A stretch of DNA of 64,000 bases from Pararcticibacter amylolyticus (GTDB lineage Bacteria > Bacteroidota > Bacteroidia > Sphingobacteriales > Sphingobacteriaceae): contig NZ_QEAS01000002.1 of assembly GCF_003130405.1 (NCBI RefSeq), positions 338,692 to 402,691 on the forward strand, in the 5' to 3' direction. Numbering within the stretch: the stretch's first letter is position 1; each line of letters begins with the position of its first letter. The notes below the pieces were generated by a model that saw nothing but the letters and a program-made list of their open reading frames with translations, was not told the DNA's origin and made no database searches. Made by a program: the position numbers and the translations under genes. Shown here piece by piece: positions 7,135-27,080 of this stretch.

Positions 7135-7818
7135 ATGAACTATAAAAAATCAGCAGTTTTTATTCTATTCAACGCGCTGATCTTAACAAACATTTCCTTA
7201 GCACAGGAAACGATGATGAACGACTTTTCCTACCTGTACTTGGAGAAGCTTGTTGCTGTGGCTAAAGAAAATTACCCCAGGGCTAAGGCTTTTAATAACA
7301 GGATTAATATTGCAAAAAGCAATATCAGTGCGCAAACATTGTCATGGCTGGAACCTTTTTCGTTCTCCTATTATTTCAGGGAAAACAATAATGCGATAGA
7401 TATCGTCAATCCCGCATTACTTACCGGCTATCAATTTGGAGTATCTTTCAATCCGGGAAGTTTGTTCAGGAAGCCCTTTGCCGTTAAGACGGCAAAAGAG
7501 GAGCTTAAAATAACAAAACTTGAGCAGCAGGAATATGAGCTCCAATTAGAAACTGAGGTAAAAACACGTTATTTACAATACCTGCAGAACCTGAATAACC
7601 TGAGGCTACAATCCAAGGTAACTATTGATGCTGAAAGTATGTATAAGAACATTAAGAGCAGATATGAAAAAGGTGAAGTGCCGCTGGCTGATTACAATAA
7701 CGTATCTGTGTCTCTGAACGCAGCTTACCAGGCTAAAATAGCCGCAGAAGCCGCACTTATAACATCTAAAGTATCACTTGAACAACTGCTGGTTAAAAAA
7801 CTGGAAGAAATTAAATAA
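7135..7818 (+). CDS. Short TolC-like outer-membrane protein
   Basis: A 227-residue protein with a signal peptide (cleavage near residue 23, SLAQ). The rest is mostly long amphipathic helix with Ala/Asn/Leu-rich heptads typical of the TolC/OEP fold (for example KSRYEKGEVPLADYNNVSVS). Usual TolC proteins have about 430-500 residues with two repeats; this has about half that length, so only one repeat is present. It is the first gene of the polysaccharide operon and its stop codon touches the ATG of the Wzc-like gene. It may act as the periplasmic/outer-membrane partner of the co-polymerase. Function is inferred from fold and position. Confidence 0.7.
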   Translation: MNYKKSAVFILFNALILTNISLAQETMMNDFSYLYLEKLVAVAKENYPRAKAFNNRINIAKSNISAQTLSWLEPFSFSYYFRENNNAIDIVNPALLTGYQFGVSFNPGSLFRKPFAVKTAKEELKITKLEQQEYELQLETEVKTRYLQYLQNLNNLRLQSKVTIDAESMYKNIKSRYEKGEVPLADYNNVSVSLNAAYQAKIAAEAALITSKVSLEQLLVKKLEEIK

Positions 7819-9996: not shown

Positions 9997-11204
9997 GTTG
10001 GCTCTCCCCCATATGGACGGCAGTTCAGATTATCATCGGATACAATTTGGTGCTTCCGGTGCTGCTGTTCATCTTATGGCTTATTTTTAAACGGCGCGGG
10101 AGATCCGGTCGTATAGATAGTAGCTTTCAGCCAGACTATGCTATTATACTGACTGCCTACGAACAGACACACACGATTCCGGCGGCCGTTAATTCCATCC
10201 TGAATTTACATTACCGGAACTTTCTCCTTTATATTGTTGCTGATAACTGCGATGTCAGCGGGTTATCCTTCGATGATGAAAAAGTGATTATCCTGAGGCC
10301 CCCGATGATTCTTCAAAGTAATACAAGATCTCATTTCTATGCGATCAGCCACTTTCAAAGAAATCATACTCATTTAACGATCATAGACAGCGATAACCTC
10401 GTTGATCCCGGGTATCTGGACCAGCTCAACATTTATTTCAATAATGGATTTGAAGCCGTTCAGGGAGTCAGGAACGCAAAGAACCTGAATTCTGTTTACG
10501 CTTGCCTCGACGCTGCACGCGATATTTATTATCATTTTTATGACGGCAGGATCCTCTTCGGACTGGGGTCTTCAGCTACCCTTGCTGGTTCAGGCATGGC
10601 TTTCACCACGGAACTTTATGCAGGCTGCCTCCAGCATCTCGATGTGCAGGGGGCTGGCTTCGATAAGGTGCTTCAAAATGAAATTTTAAAAAAAGGGAAA
10701 AGGATCGCTTTTGCAGAGAAAGCGATTGTTTACGACGAAAAAACTTCGAGATCCGATCAACTGGTCAATCAGCGTTCAAGATGGATCAATACCTGGTTCC
10801 GGTATTTTTCATTTGGCTTTGGACTTATAACTCGTGGAATTACCAGGTTTAACCTCAATCAGTTCTTGTTCGGGCTCATCCTCCTAAGACCACCCCTTTT
10901 CATCTTCCTGCTGCTTTCGTTCGTCTGTCTTCTTGTGGATCTTTTCATAAGTCCGGTTCACGCCCTTCTTTGGGCTGTAGCATTTATGGTGTTCACCTGT
11001 GGATTTGCTATTTCACTGATATCTTCAGAAACAGATAAAAAGATCTACGATTCTTTGATTGCGATTCCTAAATTTATATATTTTCAGATAGTTTCACTGA
11101 TATACAGCAGGAAAGCCAATAAACGTTCGGTCGCCACGAAGCATTATCACCCGGGTATGGAAAACAAAGACCGGACAACAAAGGAGGAAACAAATGAGGA
11201 TTGA
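9993..11204 (+). CDS. Membrane glycosyltransferase, family 2 (cellulose-synthase-like)
   Basis: A 403-residue processive-type GT2 enzyme. An N-terminal membrane helix is followed by the GT-A domain with ILTAYEQ near residue 52, the metal-binding DSDN (about 131-134) and QRSRW (about 258-262, the QxxRW motif), then three or four membrane helices from about 285 to 380. It transfers a sugar from a nucleotide-sugar to a lipid-linked or growing glycan at the inner membrane. It overlaps the Wzc-like gene by four bases (ATGA), so the two are co-translated. Sugar specificity cannot be read from the sequence. Confidence 0.87.
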   Translation: MSWLSPIWTAVQIIIGYNLVLPVLLFILWLIFKRRGRSGRIDSSFQPDYAIILTAYEQTHTIPAAVNSILNLHYRNFLLYIVADNCDVSGLSFDDEKVIILRPPMILQSNTRSHFYAISHFQRNHTHLTIIDSDNLVDPGYLDQLNIYFNNGFEAVQGVRNAKNLNSVYACLDAARDIYYHFYDGRILFGLGSSATLAGSGMAFTTELYAGCLQHLDVQGAGFDKVLQNEILKKGKRIAFAEKAIVYDEKTSRSDQLVNQRSRWINTWFRYFSFGFGLITRGITRFNLNQFLFGLILLRPPLFIFLLLSFVCLLVDLFISPVHALLWAVAFMVFTCGFAISLISSETDKKIYDSLIAIPKFIYFQIVSLIYSRKANKRSVATKHYHPGMENKDRTTKEETNED

Positions 11205-11328
11205 TCCGGAAACAGGCACCACAAGCGGAAAACCCAAAAAGGATGTTAAAAAACTGTCGCGTAATGCGGCTATCGCGGTGTGTTTTGTAATCGTTTATTA
11301 TTTTTTCATTAAACTCCTGTTCCTGTAA
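11194..11328 (+). CDS. 44-residue single-span membrane peptide inside the polysaccharide operon
   Basis: A small gene. ATG at 11194 is preceded by a near-perfect ribosome binding site (AAGGAGG, 7 bases before the start), rare in this window. The 44-residue product has a polar, lysine-rich N-half (GKPKKDVKKLSRN) and one hydrophobic helix from about 25 to 44 rich in Val, Ile, Tyr and Phe. Its start overlaps the GT2 gene by 11 bases, and its TAA shares one base with the ATG of the polymerase gene, so it is translationally coupled on both sides. No family is recognised. It may be a small subunit or stabiliser of the polymerase or synthase; that is inference. Confidence 0.72.
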   Translation: MRIDPETGTTSGKPKKDVKKLSRNAAIAVCFVIVYYFFIKLLFL

Positions 11329-12839
11329 TGGAAAAGATCAGCTTATATAAGGAGATGGGAGACACACCTAAAAAAAGCGCGTTCAGATCCTTCCTTACGT
11401 TCAGGGGCAAACCAGCCCCGGTTTTCTATCTTGTTCTGTTACTGTGCTCGGCTCTTATTTCCTTCACAGTTGCCTATTCAGGCGTTGGAGGAGGAATAGC
11501 TGTGCTGGCCTTGATCGTGGGACTTCCTCTGTCTTATGGGATAGTTGTTTACCCCAAGTTCGGAATCACTATCCTGCTCATATCGGCCTATCTGCTTATG
11601 TGGGTTTACAGGATGGGGATTGTGGATTATCCCCTGGGTACATTAATGGACGCCTTGCTGGGACTTCTCATCGTCGGGTTCCTGATTAAACAAAAGAAGA
11701 ATCCTGACTGGACAATGTTCAAGACGCCTGTCGGAATAATTATTGTTCTCTGGATTTCCTACAACATTCTCCAGTTTGCCAATCCCTTCGCTGAATCCAG
11801 GATGGCCTGGATTTATACGATACGCTCGGTAGCTTTCGTCATGCTGATGTACTTCATTTTCTGCTATCATATCCGCACTGTCGCATTCATCCGCTTTATC
11901 GTAAAGATATGGATAGCTCTGTCACTCTTTGCGGCACTTTACGGACTGAAACAGGAATTCATTGGTTTTTTTGATTATGAGTTCAGAAGTATAGATAATC
12001 AGAGGTTCAGGTCTCTCCTGTTCATCGCCGGTCACTGGCGTAAGTTTTCGATATTTACCGATCCCGTTGCATTTTCTTATAATATGGTAGCAAGTGCCAT
12101 CATGTGCCTGGTGCTTATCTTCCGCCCGGCCATGGTTTTATGGAAGAGGATTACACTTTTCGTACTGGCCTCCATATTCCTGTATTCTATGCTGTTTTCC
12201 GGCACCAGGGGGGCGTATGTGCTCATACCGGCAGCGATCGTCTTATTTGTGATCCTCAATCCGGCAAGAAAGGTTCTGCTGATTTGCTCTGTCATTGCGG
12301 TATTATTCACCATCGTAGTCTTTTTACCGACATCCAGTCCAACTATACGACGTTTCCAAACCGCGTTCAGACCTTCTGAAGATGCATCCTTTAATGCCCG
12401 TAAGAATAATCAGAAACGCTTTCAGCCTTATATCCGGTCGCATCCAATTGGCGGCGGACTCGGCGCCACAGGCGGCTGGGGTGTAAAGTTCGCCCCTCAT
12501 TCTTACCTCGCACAACTTCCGCCGGATAGCGGATATGTGAGGGTTGCAGCAGAATTGGGGTGGATAGGACTGTTCATGATCTGCACATTGTTTTTCATCA
12601 TCCTGAAAACAGGTATTGACAGCTATTGGAAAATAAAAGATCCCGAACTGAAGAACTATACCCTGGCAATGATTCTGATCGTGTTTGCTTACGCTATCGG
12701 TAATTATCCTCAGGAAGCAATCGTGCAATTCCCTTCTAATGTTTATTTTTACCTGTATACAGCACTTATCTTTGTAGTGGCAAGATTGGATGCGGAGAAA
12801 TCGAACAAAGTGACAAACGAAAATAACATACAGGCATAA
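11328..12839 (+). CDS. O-antigen ligase/polymerase (Wzy/WaaL-like) membrane protein
   Basis: A 503-residue inner-membrane protein with roughly ten to twelve hydrophobic segments. A large hydrophilic loop near residues 350-405 has the typical Wzy_C features, including GGGLGATGGWG, a His (PHSYLAQ) and a Gly-rich AELGWIGL. The protein joins repeat units of a polysaccharide on the periplasmic side. The downstream flippase and upstream co-polymerase make a Wzx/Wzy-dependent pathway likely. Start and stop overlap the neighbours by one base each. Ligase and polymerase members cannot be told apart by sequence alone. Confidence 0.83.
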   Translation: MEKISLYKEMGDTPKKSAFRSFLTFRGKPAPVFYLVLLLCSALISFTVAYSGVGGGIAVLALIVGLPLSYGIVVYPKFGITILLISAYLLMWVYRMGIVDYPLGTLMDALLGLLIVGFLIKQKKNPDWTMFKTPVGIIIVLWISYNILQFANPFAESRMAWIYTIRSVAFVMLMYFIFCYHIRTVAFIRFIVKIWIALSLFAALYGLKQEFIGFFDYEFRSIDNQRFRSLLFIAGHWRKFSIFTDPVAFSYNMVASAIMCLVLIFRPAMVLWKRITLFVLASIFLYSMLFSGTRGAYVLIPAAIVLFVILNPARKVLLICSVIAVLFTIVVFLPTSSPTIRRFQTAFRPSEDASFNARKNNQKRFQPYIRSHPIGGGLGATGGWGVKFAPHSYLAQLPPDSGYVRVAAELGWIGLFMICTLFFIILKTGIDSYWKIKDPELKNYTLAMILIVFAYAIGNYPQEAIVQFPSNVYFYLYTALIFVVARLDAEKSNKVTNENNIQA

Positions 12840-13699
12840 TGAGCATTTTCTCAGTCCCGGACTGGATCGGACAGTATAACTTTCCGTTCATTTTTTTTGA
12901 AGAAATTCCGGATCAGGTGTTTGATTCGATCAATTCAGATCTCGACAAGCTGGTTTCAAATACACCGGAGGTCAGCATCTTGATTTCAGCATGGAACGAG
13001 GAAGTGAACATCCTCAGATGTATCGCTGCATTGGCAAAAACGAAGACCAGCCTTCCGGTCGAGATCATTGTCATCAATAATAATTCTACAGACAGAACCC
13101 AGGATACGTTAAACAAACTGCATATCAAAAGCTTGTTTCAGCCTATTCAGGGTTGGGGCCCGGCCAGGCAGCTCGGACAAGAAAACGCCGGAGGCAAATA
13201 TATCCTGCTGGCCGATGCTGATTGCTTCTATCCCCCAACCTGGGTAGATGCCATGGTAAACGGATTAAAGCAGCCCGGTGTGGTGTGTGTTTACGGCAGA
13301 TATTCTTTCATTCCCGAGCCGGGCTTCCCCAGGTGGAAGCTATATATGCTCGAGAAAATGAAGGATGTCATCGCCGAGGTGAGGCAGATAAAAAGACCTT
13401 ATTTAAATTCCTATGGGATTAATATGGGATATATCCGGGAATACGGCCTGAAGGTTGGGTTTGTCATGAAAATGATCCGCGGAGATGAAGGCCGCCTCGC
13501 TTTTGATCTGATGACTTATGGGAAAATCAGGCAGGTCAGATCCAACAAGGCACGCACCTGGACAGGTCCCCGTACGCTTGCTAAAGACGGCAGCTTCAGT
13601 AAGGCCCTGACCAATCGTGTGAAACGGGAATTCAACCGCTTCTTCAAGATATTGACCCCCGAGAAACCACACGATACCAAAACATCTTCCAACGATTAG
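12839..13699 (+). CDS. Family 2 glycosyltransferase
   Basis: A 286-residue soluble GT-A enzyme. Motifs are SILISAWNEE (about 41-50), INNNSTDRT (about 80-88) and the metal-binding DAD (about 127-129) within LLADADCFYP. The first 40 residues are not typical of the family and may be a dimerisation or membrane-contact segment. The TAATG junction with the polymerase gene shows tight coupling. It is likely to add one sugar of the repeat unit; donor and acceptor are unknown. Confidence 0.85.
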   Translation: MSIFSVPDWIGQYNFPFIFFEEIPDQVFDSINSDLDKLVSNTPEVSILISAWNEEVNILRCIAALAKTKTSLPVEIIVINNNSTDRTQDTLNKLHIKSLFQPIQGWGPARQLGQENAGGKYILLADADCFYPPTWVDAMVNGLKQPGVVCVYGRYSFIPEPGFPRWKLYMLEKMKDVIAEVRQIKRPYLNSYGINMGYIREYGLKVGFVMKMIRGDEGRLAFDLMTYGKIRQVRSNKARTWTGPRTLAKDGSFSKALTNRVKREFNRFFKILTPEKPHDTKTSSND

Positions 13700-13714
13700 C
13701 TAGCGCCTTAAAGT

Positions 13715-14896
13715 ATGAATTTTGTCTTTGTAAGCCTTCAGAGAATCAACACAGACAGGGAATCGACGTCTACAAGTCTTGCAAAGGAACTGGCAAGGCA
13801 AAATCATCAGGTTCTTTATGTAAATCACCCGCTTGACAGAAGGACGCTTCTTAAAAAGGAAAGAGATCCCTACACAAACGAACATATCAGGAAAATAAAA
13901 GAAGGAGAGCCCTCCCTGGTGAAGATCGGAGAAAACTTGTGGGAACTGAATCCGGCAAAGACACTGGAATCCATAAACTGGATACCCAATACAACGATTT
14001 TCAGGCTTTTTAATAAACTTAACAACCTCAGGTTCGGTGCTGAAATCCGGGAAGCTGTCCGTCAGCTCCAGTTCGGGTCCTTTATCCTGATCAACGATAA
14101 AGATATTTTCAGAAGCTTTTACCTGAAGGAGATATTAAAACCGTCTTTGTACGTTTACCTTGACAGGGATTACACCCTGGGCTTTGACTACTGGAAAAGG
14201 CACGGAATAACACTCGAACCGGAATTAATGAAGAAGAGTGATGCGATTGTATGCAACTCACTCGATTTCACGAAAAATGCATCGAAGTATAACCCCAGGA
14301 GCTTTTATATAGGCAATGGCGGCGATCTTTCCTTGTTTAATAAAAACAATGCAGGTCCTGTTCCGCCGGAACTCCGCGATTTGCCCCGCCCTGTCATCGG
14401 GTATGTAGGTCTTTTAACAGCTCAGCGCCTCGATATCGAACTCATAAGAAAAACCGCTCTGAACAGCCGCGGAAGTGTCGTTCTGATCGGAGCAGAAGAC
14501 GAGATATTCAGTAAAAGCGATCTTCATAACCTGAAGAACGTTTATTTTATCGAAAAGAAACACACGCGGGAGATCCCGTCTTATATTAATGCTTTTGATG
14601 TCTGTATTAACCCGCAGGTGATTAATAAAATAACGATTGGCAATTTCCCCCTCAAAATTATTGAATACCTCGCAATGGGCAAACCGGTTGTGGCTATCTC
14701 TACCAACACCATGAGGGAGGTCTTCTCCGAGCATTGTTACCTGTCGGAAGATCACGATGGTTTTATTGAGAATATAGAAACTGCCCTCAGGGAAAATAAT
14801 ACTCAGCTTGAATCCGAACGAATGGAATATGCACAGAACTTTAGTTGGGAGAATATCGTAAAAAGACTGACGGGCATAATCTGCTCCTTGAATTAA
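13715..14896 (+). CDS. Family 4-type (GT-B) glycosyltransferase
   Basis: A 393-residue GT-B enzyme. The C-terminal half carries the GT4 nucleotide-sugar site: PVIGYVGLL (about 229-237), then FPLKIIEYLAMGKPVVA (about 311-327) with the two Gly/Glu-rich elements of the E-x7-E type. The N-terminal half begins with FVFVSLQRINTDRES, as in glycosyltransferases that move sugars onto lipid-linked acceptors. It lies 15 bases after the GT2 gene in the polysaccharide operon. A retaining mechanism is expected for the family; the sugar is unknown. Confidence 0.85.
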   Translation: MNFVFVSLQRINTDRESTSTSLAKELARQNHQVLYVNHPLDRRTLLKKERDPYTNEHIRKIKEGEPSLVKIGENLWELNPAKTLESINWIPNTTIFRLFNKLNNLRFGAEIREAVRQLQFGSFILINDKDIFRSFYLKEILKPSLYVYLDRDYTLGFDYWKRHGITLEPELMKKSDAIVCNSLDFTKNASKYNPRSFYIGNGGDLSLFNKNNAGPVPPELRDLPRPVIGYVGLLTAQRLDIELIRKTALNSRGSVVLIGAEDEIFSKSDLHNLKNVYFIEKKHTREIPSYINAFDVCINPQVINKITIGNFPLKIIEYLAMGKPVVAISTNTMREVFSEHCYLSEDHDGFIENIETALRENNTQLESERMEYAQNFSWENIVKRLTGIICSLN

Positions 14897-14916
14897 CGAA
14901 CAACAATTGAAGTTTA

Positions 14917-16272
14917 ATGCGTCTTTTAACCGACTTAGCAAATAAAATAAACAGTACAGACTGGCTCAAATCAGGGCTCTTTGTTACTGCTGGCAAAGGC
15001 ATTGTGGTGGTTTCTAATTTCCTGACTTTCTACCTTTTAGTACGGATCTGCACAGAAGAACAATATGGACTCTGGATACTGTATACCTCTATCTATTCTA
15101 TCTTTGAAATAGCAGGGAACAGCTTTGTCAATAATGCGATCATCAAGTATTACAACGATTATAAAGACGATCAGAACGGGCTCTTCATTTTCAATGCGCT
15201 CGCTTTCTGCCTCTTTTTAACACTTATTATTTCGGTTCTGTTAACAGGTTCTATCTATTTCATCGACAACATTTACCACTCTGCAATTCTCAATCATATG
15301 CTGTGGTATGCTCCCCTGCTCCTTCTCTTTTCTGCTCTTATCAACTTCGGAATATGCATAGAGCAGGGAAATATGAAATTTAAAGGTCAGCTGATATCAT
15401 CCCTTATAAGGTCCGGCTTATTTATCATTTATCTCGGTGCTGTGATCATCCTGAATATGAAAATAACCCTTACAGACTTTATCATGATCCAGCTGTTATC
15501 CGGGGCACTCTCCATCATCGTGATATTTTTTCTTATAAAACGGTATCTTGCTTTGAAGCCTGTGCTGCACAAACCGGTTATCCGGGACATTGCCACTTAT
15601 GGCTTGTTCACCTTCGGCGTTGAGGTGGTCGGCCAGGTATCCAACAATATCGGGCAGCTAATTTCGGGGGCATTGCTGACGCCTGCGGCTGTAGGCATTA
15701 TAAATGTTGCAAACCGGGTTTTGCAGTTAATAGAGATTCCGCTTCAGTCAATCTCTATGATATTGCTGCCAAAAGGTGTGGTTACGATGAAGGATGAAGG
15801 AATGACAGGGATCCGTACTTTGTACGAAAAGGTGTGCTCCATGCTTGTGGCAGTCATGTTTCCTTTTCTGCTGCTTCTTTTTATATTCTCGGATCAGGTG
15901 ATCTATATTATAGCGGGAGATAAGTTCATGCAGGCATCTGTTCTTCTTAAGGTTATCGTGGTATTCAGTTTAATAAAACCCTTTGGAAGAAACGCAGGAG
16001 TTATCCTCAATGCTGTTGGTAAAACACAGATCAACTTTCTGATGGTAATTATTCCTACGGCCATCAACCTTATTTTAAGTTACGTGTTGATAAAGGAGTT
16101 CGGGGTAATAGGTTCGCCAACAGCAAATCTGATTGCAACTGTTGTTGGCTTCATCTTTAACCAGATTGTCTTGTTCAAACTTGCGGGGGTTGAGTTGAAA
16201 AATATTATGCACAGAACCATTTCTCTGTATCAGAAAGGATTTAAAATGGTCATTCACCGGGGACAACATTAG
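14917..16272 (+). CDS. Wzx-type polysaccharide flippase
   Basis: A 451-residue membrane protein with about twelve to fourteen hydrophobic helices spread evenly over its length and the usual N-terminal motif region of the MOP/Wzx superfamily (LTFYLLVRICTEEQYGLWIL). Members move undecaprenyl-linked oligosaccharide units across the inner membrane. It sits between glycosyltransferase genes and downstream of the Wzy-like gene, as expected for a Wzx/Wzy pathway. The family assignment is firm; substrate is not known. Confidence 0.87.
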   Translation: MRLLTDLANKINSTDWLKSGLFVTAGKGIVVVSNFLTFYLLVRICTEEQYGLWILYTSIYSIFEIAGNSFVNNAIIKYYNDYKDDQNGLFIFNALAFCLFLTLIISVLLTGSIYFIDNIYHSAILNHMLWYAPLLLLFSALINFGICIEQGNMKFKGQLISSLIRSGLFIIYLGAVIILNMKITLTDFIMIQLLSGALSIIVIFFLIKRYLALKPVLHKPVIRDIATYGLFTFGVEVVGQVSNNIGQLISGALLTPAAVGIINVANRVLQLIEIPLQSISMILLPKGVVTMKDEGMTGIRTLYEKVCSMLVAVMFPFLLLLFIFSDQVIYIIAGDKFMQASVLLKVIVVFSLIKPFGRNAGVILNAVGKTQINFLMVIIPTAINLILSYVLIKEFGVIGSPTANLIATVVGFIFNQIVLFKLAGVELKNIMHRTISLYQKGFKMVIHRGQH

Positions 16273-16277
16273 GCATT

Positions 16278-17147
16278 ATGATCATTCCAGTAATCACAAG
16301 CGGTCTCGGGAATCAGTTATTCCAATATGCCCTGGCAAAACAGCTTTCTGTTCTGAATAATACACAGCTGTATTTCGATCTGAGGTTCTATCAAACAGAA
16401 TATGCCAGGGAGACACAGCGAACCTTTAAACTGGATAAATTCAATATACAATATTCTGAACTGAACAGACCACTTGAGTACGGTATTAAGCTTACAAGGG
16501 CTTTTCCCAACCGGAATGTGCCACTGTTATTCTCGTATGTACGGGAAAAGCATTTTCATTTTGACCCTGACATACTGGAGCTACGGTCGCCCTGCATATT
16601 TTTGATGGGGTACTGGCAGTCCGAGAAATATTTCCATCAGGCAGCAGACCAGGTGCGGAAAGAATTATCATTTAAAAATGAACCATGTGAAGTGTTTTTC
16701 CGTATTAAAGAGCAAATCATCAACGCAAATAATCCGGTGTCGCTACATATAAGACGGGGCGATTATGTTCACCATCCCGTATTCAGTGAGACATTTGGTT
16801 TCATCGGTACTGATTATTACAGGATGGCTATTTCCCGCATGAATTCAATGGTTGGCGAATGTGATTTTTTTATTTTTACAGATGACAGAGAATGGGTGGA
16901 AAAGGAGTTTCCGCTCCCGGGAAATGCAACGTATGTAACATGTACCGGCCCGGACGCTGATATAGATGATTTACACCTGATGACACTCTGCAATCACCAT
17001 ATCATTGCAAACAGTTCCTACAGCTGGTGGGGCGCATGGCTTGGAAATAATGCAGATAAATGTGTCATCGCCCCAAAACACTGGTATAAAAACCAACCCG
17101 ACTGGGACATTAAAGATTTAGTACCTGATGGCTGGGAACAGATTTAA
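16278..17147 (+). CDS. GT11 family alpha-1,2-fucosyltransferase-like enzyme
   Basis: A 289-residue protein with the complete GT11 signature. The N-terminal GLGNQLFQYALAKQL lies at about residues 9-23, the GDP-fucose site motif HIRRGDYV at about 157-164, and NSSYSWWGAWL near 244-254. Known members transfer L-fucose (in some cases another GDP-sugar) to galactose or a related residue in an alpha-1,2 linkage. In this operon it probably adds a fucosyl branch to the repeat unit. No GDP-fucose synthesis genes are in the window. Confidence 0.9.
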   Translation: MIIPVITSGLGNQLFQYALAKQLSVLNNTQLYFDLRFYQTEYARETQRTFKLDKFNIQYSELNRPLEYGIKLTRAFPNRNVPLLFSYVREKHFHFDPDILELRSPCIFLMGYWQSEKYFHQAADQVRKELSFKNEPCEVFFRIKEQIINANNPVSLHIRRGDYVHHPVFSETFGFIGTDYYRMAISRMNSMVGECDFFIFTDDREWVEKEFPLPGNATYVTCTGPDADIDDLHLMTLCNHHIIANSSYSWWGAWLGNNADKCVIAPKHWYKNQPDWDIKDLVPDGWEQI

Positions 17148-17151
17148 AATA

Positions 17152-18099
17152 ATGAAGAATTATATAAGAAAGTTTCTCCTTTTGCTTGTAGTGGTAAAAT
17201 ATCCCAAAGTCAGGAAAGAATACAAATATTTTATCCGCGACAATTATTATTGCCGTTTACTGCAATTTAAATATTTGTACAAAGATTACATTAAAAAAGG
17301 CAGGTATAAAACGATCGAGTTTCAGGGCGAATTCGACCAGGAAATACGATATGTTATGCCCTATGCCTACTGGCACTACCTCAACGGCACCCTGAAAAAA
17401 ACCATCTCCTGTAAGGGGACCAAAGAATTCTACTTTTTCAGTGATAATCACGAAGAACGCTATGATGAAAGGTTATGGGAAAAGAGCTATACCAACTTCA
17501 CCATCCCTAACATGACCCATAGCATCAGTTTTAGCTACAGGAAATGGAAGAGAATCCCTTTCAGGGAGCATTACAGTAACACCACCTTCCGGTATTCCAA
17601 GCCGACGCTGGTGATTGCCAACAAGTATAATGTAGAATGGGAAAAAGCACCTTTAAACTTCCTCGACATCTCAACCCTCGACAGCATTATTTCAAAGTAT
17701 AAAGAAAAGTATCAGATAATTTATAACAGGCCTCTCCCTTCCCAGATCGTCGAAGACAACAGTGCAATACTGGATCTGCAGGAACATCAATGGCTGAGGG
17801 AAACTCATCCGGAAGTGATCCTGATGGATGATCTGTACAGGCAGCACCAGGGCACTGTAAACAATTTCAATCACCTCCAACTCATGGTGTATGCCAATTG
17901 TTCCCATTATATATCCATGCACGGCGGAACAGGAGCTTTGGCAAGTTGTTTTGGCGGTGTGAATATTATTCTGTCAAAGCGCGGAATCGAACATGAGCTC
18001 AAAGAATTTGATACTATTGTACCCATGCTGTCAGGAGCAAAGATCCTTCACGCAAAGACAGAGGCCGAAATACTGGAATACTTATCGGAAAACTATTAA
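17152..18099 (+). CDS. Hypothetical protein, probable glycosyltransferase (GT61-like C-terminus)
   Basis: About 315 residues, not assignable to a family with certainty. The C-terminal third contains SMHGGTGALASCFGG, which resembles the HGAG nucleotide-sugar loop of GT61 enzymes, and a conserved-looking HQGTVNNFNHLQLMVY just before it. The N-terminus is very basic and aromatic (KYPKVRKEYKYF). An earlier in-frame ATG at 17128 would overlap the fucosyltransferase gene by 20 bases; I chose 17152 because it gives the cleaner junction. It ends the plus-strand polysaccharide operon, which supports a sugar-transfer or modification role. Confidence 0.68.
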   Translation: MKNYIRKFLLLLVVVKYPKVRKEYKYFIRDNYYCRLLQFKYLYKDYIKKGRYKTIEFQGEFDQEIRYVMPYAYWHYLNGTLKKTISCKGTKEFYFFSDNHEERYDERLWEKSYTNFTIPNMTHSISFSYRKWKRIPFREHYSNTTFRYSKPTLVIANKYNVEWEKAPLNFLDISTLDSIISKYKEKYQIIYNRPLPSQIVEDNSAILDLQEHQWLRETHPEVILMDDLYRQHQGTVNNFNHLQLMVYANCSHYISMHGGTGALASCFGGVNIILSKRGIEHELKEFDTIVPMLSGAKILHAKTEAEILEYLSENY

Positions 18100-18195
18100 C
18101 GGGAAATCAAATCCGGCATCTTTTCGCGTTGTACCGAGACACCTCTCCTGCCGGTCTGAAGAGCCGGTGGCAGTTAAGCTTCCCCTAAGAAACCA

Positions 18196-18984
18196 CTATT
18201 TTATTTTGGGATAACGGTATAGCTGGACAGTATTTTTGATCAGCCTGTATTTCAGATACACCGCTCTGAGAACGCGGATAAAGAAATCTTTTTTGTGCCG
18301 CCAGGGCTTGCGCTCCATCATGCTGGGTTCATCATTAGAATTCTGATGAATGAATACCTTATCATAATCTTTCGCAATAAGGGCCTTTCCACCGTTCCTG
18401 ATAAAAGAAAGGCTCATATCAAATTCCGTCACATCACCGGCCCACCCCTCTTTGTATTCACCGAATTTTTTAAAAAAGCTGCTTCTTCTCAAATGAGGAT
18501 TGTCGCTGTAACAAAAGAATTTAAGGTGACTCGTATTCCATTTATTAAAGAACACCAAGGAAAAATGATCATTATAGGGACTCAGATCAGGGTAACGAAA
18601 CAACGCAAAAAAACGGATAAAGTCTATCTGACTGTCCTCATTTAAAATAGAAAGCGACTCAGAAAGCCTTTCAGGGAAAACAGGCGCAGGAATGAAATCT
18701 TCCTGGACATACAAAGTATAAGGCGACTTAACCTCTTTCTGCCCCTTATTAATGTTATTGCCAAGACCCTTGTTGTATGGAGACGTCACGAGCTTAAAAT
18801 CAAACTCGCCCTGAAGCCTGCGAACGCGTCCCAAATGATCAGGACCGCTGCCATCGTCAGACACGATGATCTCTGCAAAAACACATTTAAGATCCCGGAA
18901 TGCCATTAGCAGACGCTCCAGAGAAATGCTGCGGTTATAATGAGTGATTAAAAGAGTTACTTCTTCAAATATATATGGATCCAT
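18196..18984 (-). CDS. Family 2 glycosyltransferase, paralogue A
   Basis: A 262-residue GT-A protein starting VTLLITHYNRSISLERLL, with the nucleotide-binding SDDGS near residue 42 and LYVQEDF (about 93-99) at the position of the metal motif (a Q-E-D rather than DxD). It is very similar along its length to the product of 20053-20829: both share GLGNNINKGQ, PYTLYVQEDF, HPHLRR/NPHLRR and FFIRxLR. The two flank a GT8-like gene, so a tandem duplication is likely. They probably add sugars to the surface polysaccharide. Acceptors are unknown. Confidence 0.83.
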   Translation of the reverse strand: MDPYIFEEVTLLITHYNRSISLERLLMAFRDLKCVFAEIIVSDDGSGPDHLGRVRRLQGEFDFKLVTSPYNKGLGNNINKGQKEVKSPYTLYVQEDFIPAPVFPERLSESLSILNEDSQIDFIRFFALFRYPDLSPYNDHFSLVFFNKWNTSHLKFFCYSDNPHLRRSSFFKKFGEYKEGWAGDVTEFDMSLSFIRNGGKALIAKDYDKVFIHQNSNDEPSMMERKPWRHKKDFFIRVLRAVYLKYRLIKNTVQLYRYPKIK

Positions 18985-18999
18985 TTTAAATTAGTATCG

Positions 19000-20013
19000 T
19001 TAATGAGCTCTTAAAGCGGCTTTCAACTCCGCCGACCGTAAGCCCAGATAAGACCAGAACAAACGACTCAAAGGGATGTTCAATAAAGCTTTGATAAGAA
19101 AAGAAGCTCCTTTATATATCTTTCTACGTTTGAAGGCATTTGCAGAGATCGAGAAGAACTGATCATGAGATACGATCTTCTTCAGAGCTGGCAGCAAAGA
19201 GCCGATACTTTTCACTTTTTCAGCAATCGCTCTTTCGGCAAACTCAGGCGTCAGGATTTCCCTTACCAAATGATCAACCCTGGCTTTGCAGCCGTAGTAA
19301 TGAACCAGGTAGTTACTGAATGGCGCTAATCGCGTTTTTTCCTGCAACAACAGTGAAAATGCGATCTGCTCACTTATAAACCAACCCGTACTGGGGAAAA
19401 AAATATCACTTAATGAGAGTATTCCCTTTAACAGATGAAGATTGCTTTTGGAAATACCTACAGTACCAGAATTCCAAACCTGATGCGTAAGATTGAAGGA
19501 AATTTTCTCCCCTTCTATTTCAAAAATAGTTTTTGAGATCAGTTTCAGAAATCTCTCCGGATACTGGAGAGCATTTTCAAACTTATCTCCCATAAATTTC
19601 TTATAAATCTGCTGCACTTCGCCAAGGCTGTATTCACGAACATGCATAATACTGGTGCCTGCATTAAGCTTTTTCAGTACATCCAGCGAGTTCTTTACAA
19701 AGAAAGTATCAGAATCGAGGTAGAAGATATCCCGCTCCGGATAAACATGAGCGATTTTATCAAGAACACAAATCTTACGTCTGTGAATATAGCCGCTTTC
19801 GTCTACCATTTCGGTCAGGTCAAACTGGCTCAGCAAAAAATATTCTACGTCTGCGCCCTTTAAAAAGCGATCAAAATATTCCTGGTTATCTGTGGCAATA
19901 ATTAATCGGAAATGTTCACTGCTGCCGTGAAAAAAAAGGAAGCTCAGTGCAGAAAATACCGCCCTCCTGTATTCTTCTTCCCTTCCGTAAGCCAAATACA
20001 CTATATTAACCAT
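19000..20013 (-). CDS. GT8-like nucleotide-sugar transferase
   Basis: About 337 residues. The N-terminus (VNIVYLAYG) and the metal-binding YLDSDTFF (about 98-105) are those of the GT-A, GT8-like superfamily, and a late HYYGCK segment (about 234-239) resembles the conserved His region of such enzymes. The ATG at 20013 is preferred; two codons upstream only a TTG is available. It lies between two paralogous GT2 genes with spacings of 15 and 39 bases, so the three form one minus-strand unit. Sugar specificity is not visible. Confidence 0.78.
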   Translation of the reverse strand: MVNIVYLAYGREEEYRRAVFSALSFLFFHGSSEHFRLIIATDNQEYFDRFLKGADVEYFLLSQFDLTEMVDESGYIHRRKICVLDKIAHVYPERDIFYLDSDTFFVKNSLDVLKKLNAGTSIMHVREYSLGEVQQIYKKFMGDKFENALQYPERFLKLISKTIFEIEGEKISFNLTHQVWNSGTVGISKSNLHLLKGILSLSDIFFPSTGWFISEQIAFSLLLQEKTRLAPFSNYLVHYYGCKARVDHLVREILTPEFAERAIAEKVKSIGSLLPALKKIVSHDQFFSISANAFKRRKIYKGASFLIKALLNIPLSRLFWSYLGLRSAELKAALRAH

Positions 20014-20052
20014 AAACAACGTTCCTTAAAATTGCCAATACCCCTGTATGCT

Positions 20053-20829
20053 TTAATATTTTACAAATAAGATATCAAAATTATATCTGATCTGACGATA
20101 AGAGTCGCGTAAAAACCTGATGAAGAAACTATTGCTCCGTGTCCACTTACTTCTCATTAGTGAACTGGGTTCTGTTTCTGAATTCATCTGTATAAAAAGT
20201 TCCTTAAAATTATCGTAAAAAAGCCCCTTACCTTTCTTCTGAATAAAGTTTATACATTTCCTGTATTCTGTCCGGTCAACGTTCCGCCCTTCGGCGTACC
20301 TGCCAAATTTCTCCAGGAAATTAGTTCTTCTCAGGTGAGGATGATCGCTATAAAAATAAATTTTCCTGTAATCGCCAAACCAGGGCTTAACATACATCTC
20401 CGAAAACCCATCTTTATACGGCTTCAGGTAAGGATATTTCAGATATGAATAAAACCGGATAATATCGAAGTCGGGGCGCTCTTCCATAATCTGAAGAGCA
20501 CTCCTGAATTTTTCCGGAAACAACAGTGTGGGTACAAAATCCTCCTGTACATATAGGGTATAAGGAGTTTTTACTGCGTCCTGCCCCTTATTTATATTAT
20601 TTCCAAGACCTCTGTTAACCGGGGTTGTCACCAGGTTAAAACGATAGATCCTGCTAAGTTCCCTGAGCACATCAAGATGTTCAGGCTTGCTGCAATCGTC
20701 TGAAACAACCACATCTGCGAATGAACAATTAAGTTCCTGAAACGTTCTGAGTAAACGCTCCAGAGAACTGCTCCTGTTGTAATGAGTCACTAACAGAGTG
20801 ACATTATTAAAATGAGATTGAGTATCCAC
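20053..20829 (-). CDS. Family 2 glycosyltransferase, paralogue B (GTG start)
   Basis: A 258-residue GT2 enzyme with VTLLVTHYNRSSSLERLL, SDDCS, GLGNNINKGQ and LYVQEDF. The start is GTG at 20829; no in-frame ATG exists near it, and alignment with paralogue A (18196-18984), whose ATG lies at nearly the same distance from the first beta strand, supports this start. It is the first gene of the minus-strand trio. The role in polysaccharide assembly is inferred from family and neighbours. Confidence 0.82.
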   Translation of the reverse strand: MDTQSHFNNVTLLVTHYNRSSSLERLLRTFQELNCSFADVVVSDDCSKPEHLDVLRELSRIYRFNLVTTPVNRGLGNNINKGQDAVKTPYTLYVQEDFVPTLLFPEKFRSALQIMEERPDFDIIRFYSYLKYPYLKPYKDGFSEMYVKPWFGDYRKIYFYSDHPHLRRTNFLEKFGRYAEGRNVDRTEYRKCINFIQKKGKGLFYDNFKELFIQMNSETEPSSLMRSKWTRSNSFFIRFLRDSYRQIRYNFDILFVKY

Positions 20830-21802: not shown

Positions 21803-22747
21803 TCAGTTCAACCTTTTTATATCAGCCGCCAGTTTCCTAGTAAACATTTCAGCGCCAGTGCGGTTCAAATGCTCGGAATTGTAGAAATAAGCAGTATCAT
21901 GCGAAATTGGATCGTTCGAATAATCCAGGAAAGGGATATTGTTTATCCCTGAAACTTGGCGAAAGTAGCTGAATACCTCATCACGGTTGACGAAATATTT
22001 CTGAACCTTGATGTATTCAGGAGAATACACAAAATAGAGCTTTATGCCTTTCTCCCGGCAGATACTTACCACATCTTCAAACTCTTTCTTTATGTACTTT
22101 TCCAGTTTCGGATGAAAGCGTTTCTTCGACTTCACGAAGTCGGAAAAGCTGTTGTCCCATTTCCGCTCCCGTCCCTCATAGCCCCTGAAACGGGGAGCGT
22201 CCATTTCTACGCTCTTATTAAGGTAAAGCAGGAATCCGATCTTAAGAAATTCGGGACGCGTACGATATTTCATAGCAGGAACATAGAGGTCGTACATGCC
22301 GAAACTGTTCTGATACCCGGAAGTTCCGCGCAGGATCACCGTATCGCTCAGAAACGGCATAAATTGCGGAGGGTCAAAAATTCCTTTCCCTTTTTCCAGG
22401 TCTTTAGCCGAGAGGGAAAGAATGATAGCTTTGGGTATTTTGTTCGTATTCATGTATACCCGAAAACGCGTGTAAGTAAGGTTAAAATCGGCTCCGTCTA
22501 TTCCTAAATTGTAGGATGAAAGATGCAAGCCCGAATCAAGGATCGCCGGGGAAATATGCGCCAATGCCCTCGAGTTACCGAGGATAAGAAGGTCAGCATT
22601 CACTTTCCGGTCATATATATCATTCCAGACGCTGAATTCGCCATTCCGGTATTTACGAAGTCCCTTATCCACGACCTTTTGAATAAAATACAGCGGAATA
22701 TACAGGCACAGTACAAAAAGAAATATTTTGAAGGTCAGTAATTTCAT
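21803..22747 (-). CDS. SGNH-like protein, AlgX/DltD-type partner of the MBOAT enzyme
   Basis: A 314-residue protein with one N-terminal membrane helix (about 5-23) and an extracytoplasmic SGNH-like domain. Block I is LLILGNSRA (Ser 59), and the C-terminal catalytic block reads NSEHLNRTGAEMF (His 293), with Asn where many relatives have Asp. AlgX, AlgJ and DltD proteins of this kind complete acyl transfer onto polysaccharides after an MBOAT enzyme. The gene begins one base after the MBOAT stop, so the pair is tightly coupled. Acyl transfer or esterase activity is inferred. Confidence 0.78.
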   Translation of the reverse strand: MKLLTFKIFLFVLCLYIPLYFIQKVVDKGLRKYRNGEFSVWNDIYDRKVNADLLILGNSRALAHISPAILDSGLHLSSYNLGIDGADFNLTYTRFRVYMNTNKIPKAIILSLSAKDLEKGKGIFDPPQFMPFLSDTVILRGTSGYQNSFGMYDLYVPAMKYRTRPEFLKIGFLLYLNKSVEMDAPRFRGYEGRERKWDNSFSDFVKSKKRFHPKLEKYIKKEFEDVVSICREKGIKLYFVYSPEYIKVQKYFVNRDEVFSYFRQVSGINNIPFLDYSNDPISHDTAYFYNSEHLNRTGAEMFTRKLAADIKRLN

Positions 22748-22748
22748 A

Positions 22749-24212
22749 TCAGAACTGGAAATAAATAAACTTATGCGCAGTCGCCGACGCGAAGAACATC
22801 ATTACCAGCACGGTAAGATAATATACCGACCACCTTACCAGCGCTCTTTGTGTTCGGAGGCGCGAGAATATCTGAAACTTATTGTCGAGGTAATGAATAG
22901 TCTCCAGGAGAATGACAAACATGCCGCAATATATCAGGCCTAGGCGGTTCAGAGTACCGTCGAATATCGGCTTACTGTTGGTAACAGCAAAATTACTCAG
23001 TTCTGTAAACACCCCCGGGATGCGGCGTAACACGTAGAAAGCATCCTGCATGCTGCCGGCTCTGAAAAATATCCAGGTAAAGCAGACAAACAGAAAAGTC
23101 AATGCCTGGCACATTGGGTTATAAATGAATGCAGGAACTTTCTTTGACAGCCTTTTCCTCGATTTTTTTGTCAGGAACTCGTAGCTCATGGCGATTCCGT
23201 GCATCACCCCGAACACAACATAAGTCCAGGCCGCACCATGCCATAAACCACTTAAGGAAAAGGTCACCATTAAAGCAAAAACAACACCCCACTTGATAGA
23301 ATCACGATTCCGTATCACCAGTGGAGTAAAAAGGTAGTCATTAAACCAGGTAGTCAGCGACATATGCCATCTTCTCCAAAAGTCAGTTACACTCCTGCTC
23401 CTAAAGGGATAATTAAAGTTCTTTACCAGTTCAAAGCCCATCACTCTCGCTGCTCCCCTTGCAATATCTGTATAAGCCGAAAAATCGCAGTATATCTGGA
23501 ATGCGAAAAAGAAAACGGCAATCACAATAGCTATAGACGTTTGAACATGAAGGTTACCGTACACACTGTCAGTATATGTTGCAAGATTATCGGCAATCAC
23601 GATCTTTTTAAAGAAACCCCACAACATCAGCCTTAATCCATCGACCACCCTGGTATAACAGAATTCTTTTTTCTCATGGAACTGGTGGATCATATTCTGG
23701 GGCCGTTCTATAGGACCTGCTACCAACTGGGGATAAAACATCACGTAAAGGGCGTAGATCCCGAAGTGCTTCTCTGCCCGGTAATTTCCCCTGGCAATTT
23801 CAAGCGTATAGCTCATAGCCTGAAAGGTATGGAATGATAAACCTACCGGTAAAAGCATGGTTAAGGCAGGGATTGGATTCGTCCAGCCAAACAGCCCCGC
23901 CAGTCCCGTAATATTGTCGTTGATAAAATTATAATATTTAAAAACAGCCAGCACCCCTATATTCGCTACAAGGCTTATCATTAAATACCTTTTTTTCAAT
24001 TTGCTTGTTGCCGCACTTTCAATCAAAATGCCCGCATAATAATCCACAACAATGGTAAAGGCCAGGATGAGAATGTACTCGGGCTTAAAAAACATGTAGA
24101 AAAAGCAGGAAGCAGCCAGCAGTAACTGCCATCTGAACCTGTGCGGAAGAATAAAGAAAAGAACGGTTACTACCGGAAAAAAAACGAGGAATTCAAATGA
24201 ATTAAATAGCAT
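22749..24212 (-). CDS. MBOAT family O-acyltransferase (AlgI/DltB-like)
   Basis: A 487-residue polytopic membrane enzyme. It has the MBOAT core SVTDFWRRWHMSLTTWF and the conserved active-site WHG (LSGLWHGAAW; His 325). AlgI and DltB are the best known relatives: AlgI moves acetyl groups and DltB moves D-alanine from a carrier protein across the membrane to a surface polymer. Here an acyl carrier protein gene lies 23 bases upstream and an SGNH partner follows, so transfer from a carrier protein, as in DltB, is plausible. The acyl group is not determined by sequence. Confidence 0.9.
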   Translation of the reverse strand: MLFNSFEFLVFFPVVTVLFFILPHRFRWQLLLAASCFFYMFFKPEYILILAFTIVVDYYAGILIESAATSKLKKRYLMISLVANIGVLAVFKYYNFINDNITGLAGLFGWTNPIPALTMLLPVGLSFHTFQAMSYTLEIARGNYRAEKHFGIYALYVMFYPQLVAGPIERPQNMIHQFHEKKEFCYTRVVDGLRLMLWGFFKKIVIADNLATYTDSVYGNLHVQTSIAIVIAVFFFAFQIYCDFSAYTDIARGAARVMGFELVKNFNYPFRSRSVTDFWRRWHMSLTTWFNDYLFTPLVIRNRDSIKWGVVFALMVTFSLSGLWHGAAWTYVVFGVMHGIAMSYEFLTKKSRKRLSKKVPAFIYNPMCQALTFLFVCFTWIFFRAGSMQDAFYVLRRIPGVFTELSNFAVTNSKPIFDGTLNRLGLIYCGMFVILLETIHYLDNKFQIFSRLRTQRALVRWSVYYLTVLVMMFFASATAHKFIYFQF

Positions 24213-24235
24213 TTCAGCCTAAATTATCGGAAACG

Positions 24236-24481
24236 TTATGGATTCAGCTTACTGTTAATGGAGCTGATCATTTCCCCAACATTCTTAAACTGGTAAATTT
24301 CCGTTGATGTAAACTTTATACGGAAAGCCTTTTCTATGGCAGCAATCAGCTGAATATGGTTCAAAGAGTCCCAGTCATCGACATCTGAGGCAACGGTATC
24401 AAAATTGATGACGACATCTTCATTATCAAGTACATCTTTAAAAATCTCATTTACTTCTTTTAACAATTGTTCTTGGTTCAT
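24236..24481 (-). CDS. Acyl carrier protein (phosphopantetheine-binding)
   Basis: An 81-residue acidic carrier protein with the attachment motif DSLNHIQLI (Ser 39) preceded by DDW. Length and motif fit FkbJ/DltC-like dedicated carriers. The ATG overlaps the stop of the FkbH gene by four bases, which points to equal expression of the loading enzyme and the carrier. It probably carries a glyceryl or related acyl thioester for the next enzyme. This is not the housekeeping fatty-acid ACP, judging from its sequence and context, though I cannot exclude a wider role. Confidence 0.87.
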   Translation of the reverse strand: MNQEQLLKEVNEIFKDVLDNEDVVINFDTVASDVDDWDSLNHIQLIAAIEKAFRIKFTSTEIYQFKNVGEMISSINSKLNP

Positions 24482-26223
24482 ACCGGTGTTGACGTTTTCT
24501 TTATGTGAATAATTTTCTCTAATCTATAATCTGCCAGCTCGAGGCAGTACCTGTTCTCCGAGATTGTTCCAAATCCCAGAGAGGGATAATGTTCTTTTAC
24601 AAGTGAATTCTTTGCTGTAGGAATATACTCACCCACGATCCTCCGGACACCCGACAGCCTGGCATCACTGGCTATGCAGTTGAGGGTAAACCACTCCATC
24701 CCTCTTTTTAAAACCCGGCAACTCATTGCCCAGTTCTCAATGAACAGCGTCTCAGAATCCGTCTTTTTCAGGACAACAAATGCGACAAGTCCGTTATCAC
24801 CGAACTTATCCTTTAATGTAAACGAATAAGTGCAATAATCAGGATCGCCGGTCATTCTTTTAACCTCCTCCTCTGTATACCTGATAGTCCTCAAATTAAA
24901 CTGGTTAGAACGCTGGGATAACTGCGAGACCCTTGGCACGCTGAAAGGATCAAAAGCCCTTACCTCCGAAGACATATCCAGGCTGGCCAAAAATGCATCT
25001 TCGTTCGCAAAGCCCTTTAACACATTCCTTCTTTTTGCCTCTTCCTGGTACTGGCGGGTCCTCTCACTATCATTTGGTGTATATGACGCTGTTTCAAACA
25101 AATTTAATGAGTGCAGAAAGAGCAGGTATTCTGCCGGGTCTTCCGGAAGATCCGGAACAATGATCTCCGGTATTTCCTTTTTTACCAGTGCTCTTTCCAC
25201 CGGGTTGTCGTCAATAAATACCATAGAGTCTATGCCAATATTCAGCACACTTTGAATATGCCTGATATTATCGGCCTTGTTCTCCCAGTTGGCAACAAAA
25301 ACCGCAATGTCATCAAGCCGGAGTTCCATTTCAGGGTGACTGATAAAAGGTTGACGGGCAGTATCATCATTATTCTTGCTGCATACAGCCAGGATGATCC
25401 CCCTTGCCTTCAGCTGCTTCAGCCATAACTGAAGTTCTGAGAATATTTTCCCGTTTCCCAGGCTGCCAATCTGTATTCCGTCGGTGCCGTCATCTCCGAT
25501 AACACCTCCCCAGAGGGTATTGTCGAGATCCAATACCACACATTTTACAAACGAACCTGAAACAGCGAATATGATATCATTTATATTCTTCGCCAGATAT
25601 GGTAAAAAATCAATACTGTAAACCATATCCGCCGCATAATAGATCTTGGGATCAAAAGAGCCATTATGTCCTGCCCTTGCAATCATCGAATTTAAATCCA
25701 GGAGAAATAAATCCTTCCTGTTCACAGACAAATCAATCAGCTTCATATTCAATTTCTTCAGCTGATATGCAAAAGAAGACATTACCTTCAACCCGAAATT
25801 ACCAAAGACACTATCGTTAATCTCAGAGTAATTATTAGTGATAACCGCACAATCAAGCCTTTGCGATACCGTGGCACATAATTCTTCCAGATACTGTAGC
25901 TGACTGTCCGCAAAATTTCCCCGTTCATCATGGTCCATTTTGTAGAAATACTTCATAAGCCGGCTGGTGCTTCTTAGTATGATCACAAAGGCCGGAGCAA
26001 ATCTGTACAGTTCAGAACCAGCATCAAACACCTGCATATCAATCTGGTTGTAATCCGCTTCAAAGATTTCATACTTTACATTGAACTCAGCGCCATATCC
26101 TTTTAAAGCATTGACAGTTAACTGAGAGGATGAATCTGAAAGCACAGCCACCCTGATCTCTTTATTCAAAGATGAAAGCCTCTTCAGGTTCTTTTTAAGA
26201 TCGTTGAACGGTTTAATATTCAC
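24478..26223 (-). CDS. FkbH-like HAD-superfamily protein (probable glyceryl-ACP loading enzyme)
   Basis: A 581-residue protein. The N-terminal part has the family's SDSSSQ (about 30-34). The HAD domain has VLDLDNTLWGG with Asp 232 and Asp 234, a preceding Cys 228, and FIDDNPVERALV further on. The C-terminal region (about 430-560) is GNAT-like. Characterised FkbH-type enzymes (for example OzmB) load a glyceryl unit from 1,3-bisphosphoglycerate onto an ACP and remove the phosphate. The start is GTG at 26223, because an in-frame stop lies close upstream and no early ATG exists. It heads an operon with ACP, MBOAT and SGNH genes. Family is certain; glyceryl chemistry here is inferred. Confidence 0.88.
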   Translation of the reverse strand: MNIKPFNDLKKNLKRLSSLNKEIRVAVLSDSSSQLTVNALKGYGAEFNVKYEIFEADYNQIDMQVFDAGSELYRFAPAFVIILRSTSRLMKYFYKMDHDERGNFADSQLQYLEELCATVSQRLDCAVITNNYSEINDSVFGNFGLKVMSSFAYQLKKLNMKLIDLSVNRKDLFLLDLNSMIARAGHNGSFDPKIYYAADMVYSIDFLPYLAKNINDIIFAVSGSFVKCVVLDLDNTLWGGVIGDDGTDGIQIGSLGNGKIFSELQLWLKQLKARGIILAVCSKNNDDTARQPFISHPEMELRLDDIAVFVANWENKADNIRHIQSVLNIGIDSMVFIDDNPVERALVKKEIPEIIVPDLPEDPAEYLLFLHSLNLFETASYTPNDSERTRQYQEEAKRRNVLKGFANEDAFLASLDMSSEVRAFDPFSVPRVSQLSQRSNQFNLRTIRYTEEEVKRMTGDPDYCTYSFTLKDKFGDNGLVAFVVLKKTDSETLFIENWAMSCRVLKRGMEWFTLNCIASDARLSGVRRIVGEYIPTAKNSLVKEHYPSLGFGTISENRYCLELADYRLEKIIHIKKTSTPV

Positions 26224-26998: not shown

Positions 26999-27034
26999 AA
27001 AAAAACGGGGCAATGCAAGCGCACATTACCCCGT
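26999..27034 (-). terminator. Terminator of the NDH-2 gene
   Basis: On the minus strand an 11-bp stem with one mismatch (arms 27024-27034 and 27005-27015, 8-base loop) is followed by seven T. It lies about 50 bases past the stop codon at 27081. Confidence 0.82.
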
Positions 27035-27080
27035 TTATATGTGGTTTTAACAGAATGGAAAATTCTTCGTCCTGATAAAT

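Follow-up and report, generated by a model that had tools for sequence, protein, structure and literature searches.

The stretch of DNA analysed here (the window, 64,000 nucleotides of contig NZ_QEAS01000002.1 of Pararcticibacter amylolyticus, in whose coordinates all positions are given) carries on its reverse strand, from 26223 down to 21803, an operon of four genes encoding, in order, an FkbH-type HAD protein, an acyl carrier protein (ACP), an MBOAT acyltransferase and an SGNH-type protein. The FkbH and ACP genes overlap by 4 bases and the ACP, MBOAT and SGNH genes follow one another with gaps of 23 and 1 bases; gene calls and family matches agree on this arrangement, as an initial annotation of the locus had described it.

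24478..26223, reverse strand: FkbH-type HAD glyceryltransferase/phosphatase, the putative loader; 581 aa, GTG start; PF21211, TIGR01686
24236..24481, reverse strand: ACP; 81 aa; PF00550 at 4e-7
22749..24212, reverse strand: MBOAT acyltransferase; 487 aa; PF03062 at 3e-19
21803..22747, reverse strand: SGNH-type protein; 314 aa, N-terminal helix at residues 2-30; identified by AlphaFold model and fold search

The FkbH-ACP-MBOAT-SGNH system is real and recurrent, and it is apparently undescribed in the literature searched. That literature, which took in few subscription papers and no preprints, contained no description of FkbH acting with an MBOAT on polysaccharides and no system of this composition, as the initial annotation had supposed. 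The sole paper found that brings together FkbH, MBOAT and ACP concerns the aeruginosins and has all three acting on a peptide (PMC10143770), and no glyceryltransferase gene turned up in the titles and abstracts of the gellan literature.

Recurrence and distribution of the gene order

The conserved gene order for which the initial annotation had proposed a search was followed in the 80 FkbH loci nearest to that of the window, at one genome per species, the neighbouring genes being found with hidden Markov models built from those loci; these are best matches, and the frequencies are hence biased upwards. An ACP gene lies within 2.5 kb of FkbH in 74 of the 80 loci, an MBOAT gene on the same strand lies no more than 4.5 kb downstream in 52, and an SGNH gene comes directly after the MBOAT gene in 43 of the 49 loci with enough sequence. 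The association of FkbH, ACP and MBOAT is therefore not due to chance. Most of the loci are from Bacteroidota, the remainder coming from Ignavibacteria, Treponema, Omnitrophota, a deltaproteobacterium, Clostridium and Verrucomicrobia. Among 392 Bacteroidota genomes drawn evenly, 29 have an FkbH over the cut-off, and the MBOAT module was present in four of the 20 FkbH neighbourhoods viewed in that draw (L132, L133, L141, L143), or about one species per 100. The source genome has a single FkbH match and a single MBOAT match. None of the five same-genus genomes searched has an FkbH match, which suggests that the gene was either acquired by transfer or lost in relatives.

The same components occur on pSymB of Sinorhizobium meliloti, a model organism of the laboratory (L090/L091), where the order is VOC, MBOAT (ending in FLYQGF), a gene in the SGNH position, ACP and FkbH, followed by capsule ABC export genes and RkpR; the rkp-3 region has been tied to K-antigen biosynthesis (PMC5429615). 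Annotated as a TonB-dependent receptor and without a Pfam match, the gene that stands for SGNH here is assigned by position only. This module differs from that of the window in its gene order, in the presence of the VOC gene and in its FkbH, which shows approximately 38% identity across 69% of the query. A different arrangement was seen in Maribacter, Ulvibacterium and Flagellimonas (L029, L042, L061), where FkbH and ACP are followed by a KASIII gene with no MBOAT, probably reflecting another use of glyceryl-ACP. FkbH matches were also present in two unannotated faecal phage records.

Conserved residues, the fused shuttle motif and the predicted docking helix

The residues and motifs on which the functional assignments depend are as follows.

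25528..25530, reverse strand: FkbH Asp232, presumed HAD nucleophile, DLDNT motif, with Asp234 two codons later; both in 81/81
24718..24720, reverse strand: FkbH Cys502, SCRV motif, candidate cysteine for the glyceryl-thioester step; 81/81 near relatives
24365..24367, reverse strand: ACP Ser39, phosphopantetheine site, WDSLNHIQL; 87/87 aligned ACPs
23364..23366, reverse strand: MBOAT His283, RWH motif, aligned with DltB H289; 74/74
23274..23342, reverse strand: MBOAT residues 291-313 (NDYLFTPLVIRNRDSIKWGVVFA), predicted carrier-docking stretch, with V299/I300 instead of GG; separates ACP-linked from unlinked MBOATs
23238..23240, reverse strand: MBOAT His325, WHG motif, the family's catalytic histidine; 74/74
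22752..22769, reverse strand: MBOAT C-terminus FIYFQF, predicted acyl-shuttle motif FXYXXF, Tyr484; Tyr in 74/74
22571..22573, reverse strand: SGNH Ser59 (GNS), candidate nucleophile; 61/62, invariant in A3
21869..21871, reverse strand: SGNH His293 (NSEHLN), candidate catalytic histidine; 61/62

The FkbH protein of the window matches FkbH_N (PF21211) at 5e-63 and the FkbH model TIGR01686 at 7e-89, with 298 bits against a cut-off of 147, and its N-terminal 380 residues match the solved structure BF1531 (3slr) at 6e-117. The two aspartates, the first of which we take to be the nucleophile from what is known of the HAD family, are also present in the polyketide-type FkbH proteins L095 and L096. 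Because Cys502 is common to polyketide-type FkbH (it is kept throughout L090-L097, L095 and L096 included), whereas C228 and C281 are not conserved across all of them, it is the candidate acyl-binding cysteine for a thioester intermediate. Proteins of the FkbH family load 1,3-bisphosphoglycerate and remove its phosphate, which yields carrier-bound glyceryl (PMC8949500, PMC7489565), and by this known chemistry the acyl group of the window system would be glyceryl. In the 87-sequence alignment of the carrier proteins the positions following Ser39 are hydrophobic, being L or I at +1 and I, L or V at +4.

The MBOAT protein scores 160.8 bits against the DltB model TIGR04091, under its cut-off of 375, so that it does not count as a DltB equivalog. 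DltB is nevertheless its best fold match (E 4.6e-14), the two align by sequence at 3e-28 (6bug), and the structure model of the protein has a pLDDT of 91. The full-length MBOATs of FkbH loci end in a C-terminus of the FXYXXF type. In Dlt systems, which attach D-alanine to teichoic acid, this acyl-tyrosine motif is on the separate microprotein DltX, while in PatA it lies at the C-terminus of the MBOAT itself and its tyrosine is acetylated from acetyl-coenzyme A (acetyl-CoA); the authors of the PatA study stated that no carrier protein takes part in MBOAT/SGNH pathways other than Dlt (PMC12148441). By analogy with PatA, Tyr484 of FIYFQF may be expected to act as the shuttle. No Pfam or NCBIfam family matches the SGNH protein, whose putative identity derives from an AlphaFold model (pLDDT 95.2, pTM 0.92), a fold search and the conserved Ser59 and His293; the best PDB fold matches of the model are DltD structures (3bma, 7dxm, 6o93), at E 1e-5 and a TM of 0.42-0.48, which is a likeness at the level of the fold.

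When 53 ACP-linked MBOATs were compared with 28 unlinked ones, most of the strongest differences fell within residues 291-313, a stretch flanked by the two conserved histidines. Unlinked MBOATs read DYLYIPLGG(N/S) here, whereas linked ones have hydrophobic or small residues in place of GG, often followed by R-D. The V299 and I300 of the window align to DltB V305 and I306, which, together with M302 and M309, touch Met36 and Val39 of DltC in the solved complex (PMC11035591); the hydrophobic +1 and +4 positions of the ACP correspond to these two DltC residues. GG is absent from 65 of 67 ACP-linked MBOATs and present in 33 of 36 unlinked ones, counts in which some ten divergent or displaced MBOATs beside FkbH-ACP were assigned as linked by hand. 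Where a locus has two MBOATs (L030, L067, L073, L084, L132, L133), GG is found only in the copy that is not linked to the ACP. Linkage changed several times on an MBOAT tree made without the docking columns, and in seven independent contrasts, drawn as random sets, the loop changed as expected in 4-6 and the opposite way in none, although such phylogenetically independent contrasts are few and the median p is 0.06, so that the support is consistent and not decisive. GG may be read as a mark of acyl-CoA use.

One of the two exceptions among the linked MBOATs, L079, has another MBOAT in its locus. The clear exception is L021, which is linked but has an MBOAT of the GG type; the fusion of its ACP to a hexapeptide acyltransferase would give the acyl group another outlet. 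The fusion protein itself (L021:6227-7114) joins the ACP to an acyltransferase of the left-handed beta-helix hexapeptide type in an FkbH-MaoC-SDR locus, which hints that the acyl group on this ACP may also be used in the cytoplasm. The motif was looked for in plasmid MBOATs of other phyla as well, against a plasmid gene table that is incomplete: none of the eight with GG has a listed ACP as its neighbour (one, L183, adjoins AlgF), and those without GG include L179, flanked by an ACP and an AMP-ligase, L190, in a Dlt operon, and L189, a plasmid DltB. L179 (1629-5957, on a Metabacillus plasmid) comprises an ACP, an AMP-binding ligase, an MBOAT ending in FIYGGF without the docking-helix GG, and a hypothetical protein, and thus represents a second type of loader, a ligase, paired with a fused-shuttle MBOAT. 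An argument for ACP binding by a basic patch failed, because the net charge of the docking region (0.4 in linked against 2.6 in unlinked MBOATs) did not distinguish the two groups in the way that such a patch would predict; the docking signal lies in individual positions and not in net charge.

Putative tailoring cassettes and the polysaccharide neighbourhood

In many of the loci either a MaoC (PF01575) and an SDR (PF00106) gene, or a methyltransferase (PF13489) and a VOC (PF13669) gene, are inserted between FkbH and MBOAT. Their motifs are intact (MaoC D-x-N-x-x-H-x-D in 28/30, SDR Y-x3-K in 27/27, VOC H5, E54, H73 and E121 in 21/21), and by general enzyme chemistry the cassettes would carry out C2 epimerisation, O-methylation, or C3 dehydration and reduction to lactyl while the acyl group is on the ACP. 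No such gene is present in the window operon, which by its gene content is the minimal form of a modular family many of whose loci carry ACP-tailoring genes. On a tree of the 53 linked MBOATs it groups with the minimal operons L020, L010 and L011 and with L018, a methyltransferase and VOC locus; L018 is the closest by identity (60%), whereas L020 is the nearest on a mixture-model tree. Cassette types are scattered over the 53-MBOAT tree (10 changes for the minimal form and 13 for MaoC+SDR, the latter no fewer than when shuffled), from which it follows that cassettes swap between MBOAT lineages. The idea that the MBOAT is specific for a tailored acyl group was dropped on the same evidence, MBOAT sequence being a poor predictor of acyl type. 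In a Treponema locus (L055:12475-15121) an apparent aldo-keto reductase and two transketolase halves, judged by their starting residues, lie between MaoC and MBOAT and are possibly a further tailoring route.

The operon is adjoined in the window by a polysaccharide cluster (7135..20829), identified by Pfam matches, and by a methyltransferase gene.

7135-7818: OEP-like protein
7819-9996: Wzz-like chain-length regulator
9993-11204: GT2 glycosyltransferase
11328-12839: Wzy-like protein
12839-13699: GT2 glycosyltransferase
13715-14896: GT1 glycosyltransferase
14917-16272: Wzx-like protein
16278-17147: GT11 glycosyltransferase
18196-18984, reverse strand: GT2 glycosyltransferase
20053-20829, reverse strand: GT2 glycosyltransferase
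21048-21791, strand opposite to the operon: FkbM-type methyltransferase, of another family than the methyltransferase of the sister loci

The outer-membrane efflux-like protein heading the cluster has just 227 aa and a single OEP match, and the proteins encoded at 17128-18099 and 19000-20019 match no Pfam family. On the other side of the operon, 5' of FkbH, some 850 bases (26224-27080) contain no clear gene and may hold a promoter or a regulatory site. It is this gene neighbourhood that points to the exported polysaccharide of the Wzx/Wzy cluster as the probable acceptor.

A proposed carrier-fed variant of envelope acylation

The initial annotation had seen in the operon a Dlt-like system with FkbH in the place of DltA. 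What stands of this is the carrier-protein donor (PF00550, with its invariant serine), the DltB fold of the MBOAT together with its hydrophobic DltC-contact positions, and the DltD fold of the SGNH protein. What does not is the way in which the acyl group would be relayed, as DltX is missing (it would not fit into intergenic gaps of 23 and 1 bases) and the shuttle motif is fused to the MBOAT, as in PatA. FkbH replaces the ATP-dependent ligase DltA as the loader, there is no AMP-binding gene among the four of the operon, and the system is found in a Bacteroidota host next to polysaccharide genes. Plain membership of Dlt is ruled out by the lack of DltA and DltX and by the sub-threshold DltB score. 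With the O-acetylation pair PatA/PatB the operon shares the C-terminal FXYXXF with its invariant tyrosine and an SGNH protein with conserved Ser59 and His293, though an asparagine stands for the Asp of the DxxH motif; PatA, however, takes acetyl-CoA without a carrier, whereas here an ACP gene lies 23 bases upstream of the MBOAT gene, and V-I stands where the ACP-free MBOATs of this comparison have GG(N/S). Since DltX is absent and FXYXXF is fused to the MBOAT C-terminus, the system appears to be a Dlt/Pat hybrid that combines the carrier of the one with the fused shuttle of the other. The FkbH and ACP half resembles the loading step of polyketide and nonribosomal pathways (an FkbH over the cut-off, a neighbouring ACP, the HAD aspartates and the SCRV cysteine), but no ketosynthase, FabH-like tetronate enzyme or oxidising dehydrogenases come after it, and the acyl group apparently goes to an export acyltransferase. 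Judged by its sequence, the operon would be a variant of envelope acylation that is carrier-fed like Dlt, shuttle-fused like Pat and loaded by FkbH.

The proposed logic, in which FkbH loads, the MBOAT transfers across the membrane and the SGNH protein finishes, is supported by the sequence tests. From the chemistry of its family, FkbH would take glyceryl from 1,3-bisphosphoglycerate, strip the phosphate and load the phosphopantetheine of the ACP. To judge from the mapping of the docking stretch, glyceryl-ACP would then bind the MBOAT at its horizontal helix on the cytoplasmic side, by contacts at V299/I300, as DltC docks on DltB. The MBOAT, if it behaves like PatA, would hand the group to its own Tyr484 in FIYFQF on the periplasmic side, and from Tyr484 it would go to the SGNH Ser59; the SGNH protein may then acylate a hydroxyl of the polysaccharide of the adjacent Wzx/Wzy cluster. 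The preferred reading is that the MBOAT and the SGNH protein form a carrier-fed system by which an exported polysaccharide is esterified with glycerate, and a probability of about 0.7 is attached to it.

Besides the assignment of linkage by hand and the small number of contrasts, several observations weigh against this reading. The wider MBOAT family is mostly ACP-free, and of 29 next-best matches fetched from the 392 Bacteroidota genomes only L149 is linked to FkbH. The plasmid MBOATs L182 and L187 have neither GG nor an ACP listed nearby, for which reason GG foretells the lack of a carrier better than its absence foretells a carrier; the Bacteroidota MBOATs L163, L166 and L169 likewise have no clean GG and no adjacent ACP. 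In the SGNH protein the Asp of DxxH is Asn290, a position that is D in 48/62 and N in 9/62.

The same enzymology might serve another acceptor, such as peptidoglycan, lipopolysaccharide, a lipid or a protein glycan. MBOAT-SGNH pairs do serve several envelope polymers (PMC12148441), and the operon is on the opposite strand to most of the Wzx/Wzy genes, with an upstream gap of its own. This is nonetheless unlikely, given that the operon is 1 kb from a glycosyltransferase gene, that the near relative L020 is flanked by apparent glycosyltransferase genes (judged by first residues) and that the S. meliloti module has capsule export genes as its neighbours. It is distinctly unlikely that ACP-bound glyceryl is altered before transfer by enzymes encoded elsewhere, for example through O-methylation, epimerisation at C2, or conversion to lactyl by dehydration and reduction, the ester then being that of a glycerate derivative. 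Many sister loci do have the genes for such steps, with their motifs intact, and the MBOAT closest by identity comes from a locus of that kind; the window operon lacks them, however, as do L020, L010 and L011, and the adjacent FkbM-type methyltransferase is on the other strand and of a different family. Very unlikely is an arrangement in which MBOAT and SGNH acetylate the polysaccharide from acetyl-CoA and FkbH-ACP supplies a separate cytoplasmic acyltransferase. Most MBOAT-SGNH pairs near the window sequence do lack FkbH and ACP, an ACP-hexapeptide acyltransferase fusion exists in L021, and some FkbH-ACP pairs are accompanied by KASIII and no MBOAT; but the operon contains no gene for a cytoplasmic acyltransferase, its four genes are nearly contiguous, and ordinary O-acetylation from acetyl-CoA is disfavoured because of the docking-site signature, that is, hydrophobic residues instead of GG(N/S) at the DltC-contact positions.

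If a carrier-fed system esterifying the polysaccharide with glycerate is indeed present, the decoration of surface polysaccharides would draw on a glycolytic intermediate and need no ATP-dependent activation of the acyl group, and the glycerate chemistry of antibiotics would gain a place in the biology of the cell envelope. The docking-helix signature provides a rule, open to testing, by which the acyl donor of a bacterial MBOAT may be told from its sequence. For the family as a whole, the odds seem about even that there is a modular form of carrier-fed export acylation, in which FkbH-derived glyceryl-ACP is modified by exchangeable cassettes acting on the ACP (VOC, as an epimerase with its metal ligands intact, from D to L glyceryl, the methyltransferase to O-methylglyceryl, MaoC and SDR to lactyl) and is delivered by a DltB/PatA-hybrid MBOAT and an SGNH protein to surface glycans. 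Were this so, the view that acyl-CoA is the donor in MBOAT-SGNH systems apart from Dlt would be contradicted, and GG as against other residues in the docking helix would become a sequence rule dividing CoA-fed from carrier-fed MBOATs.

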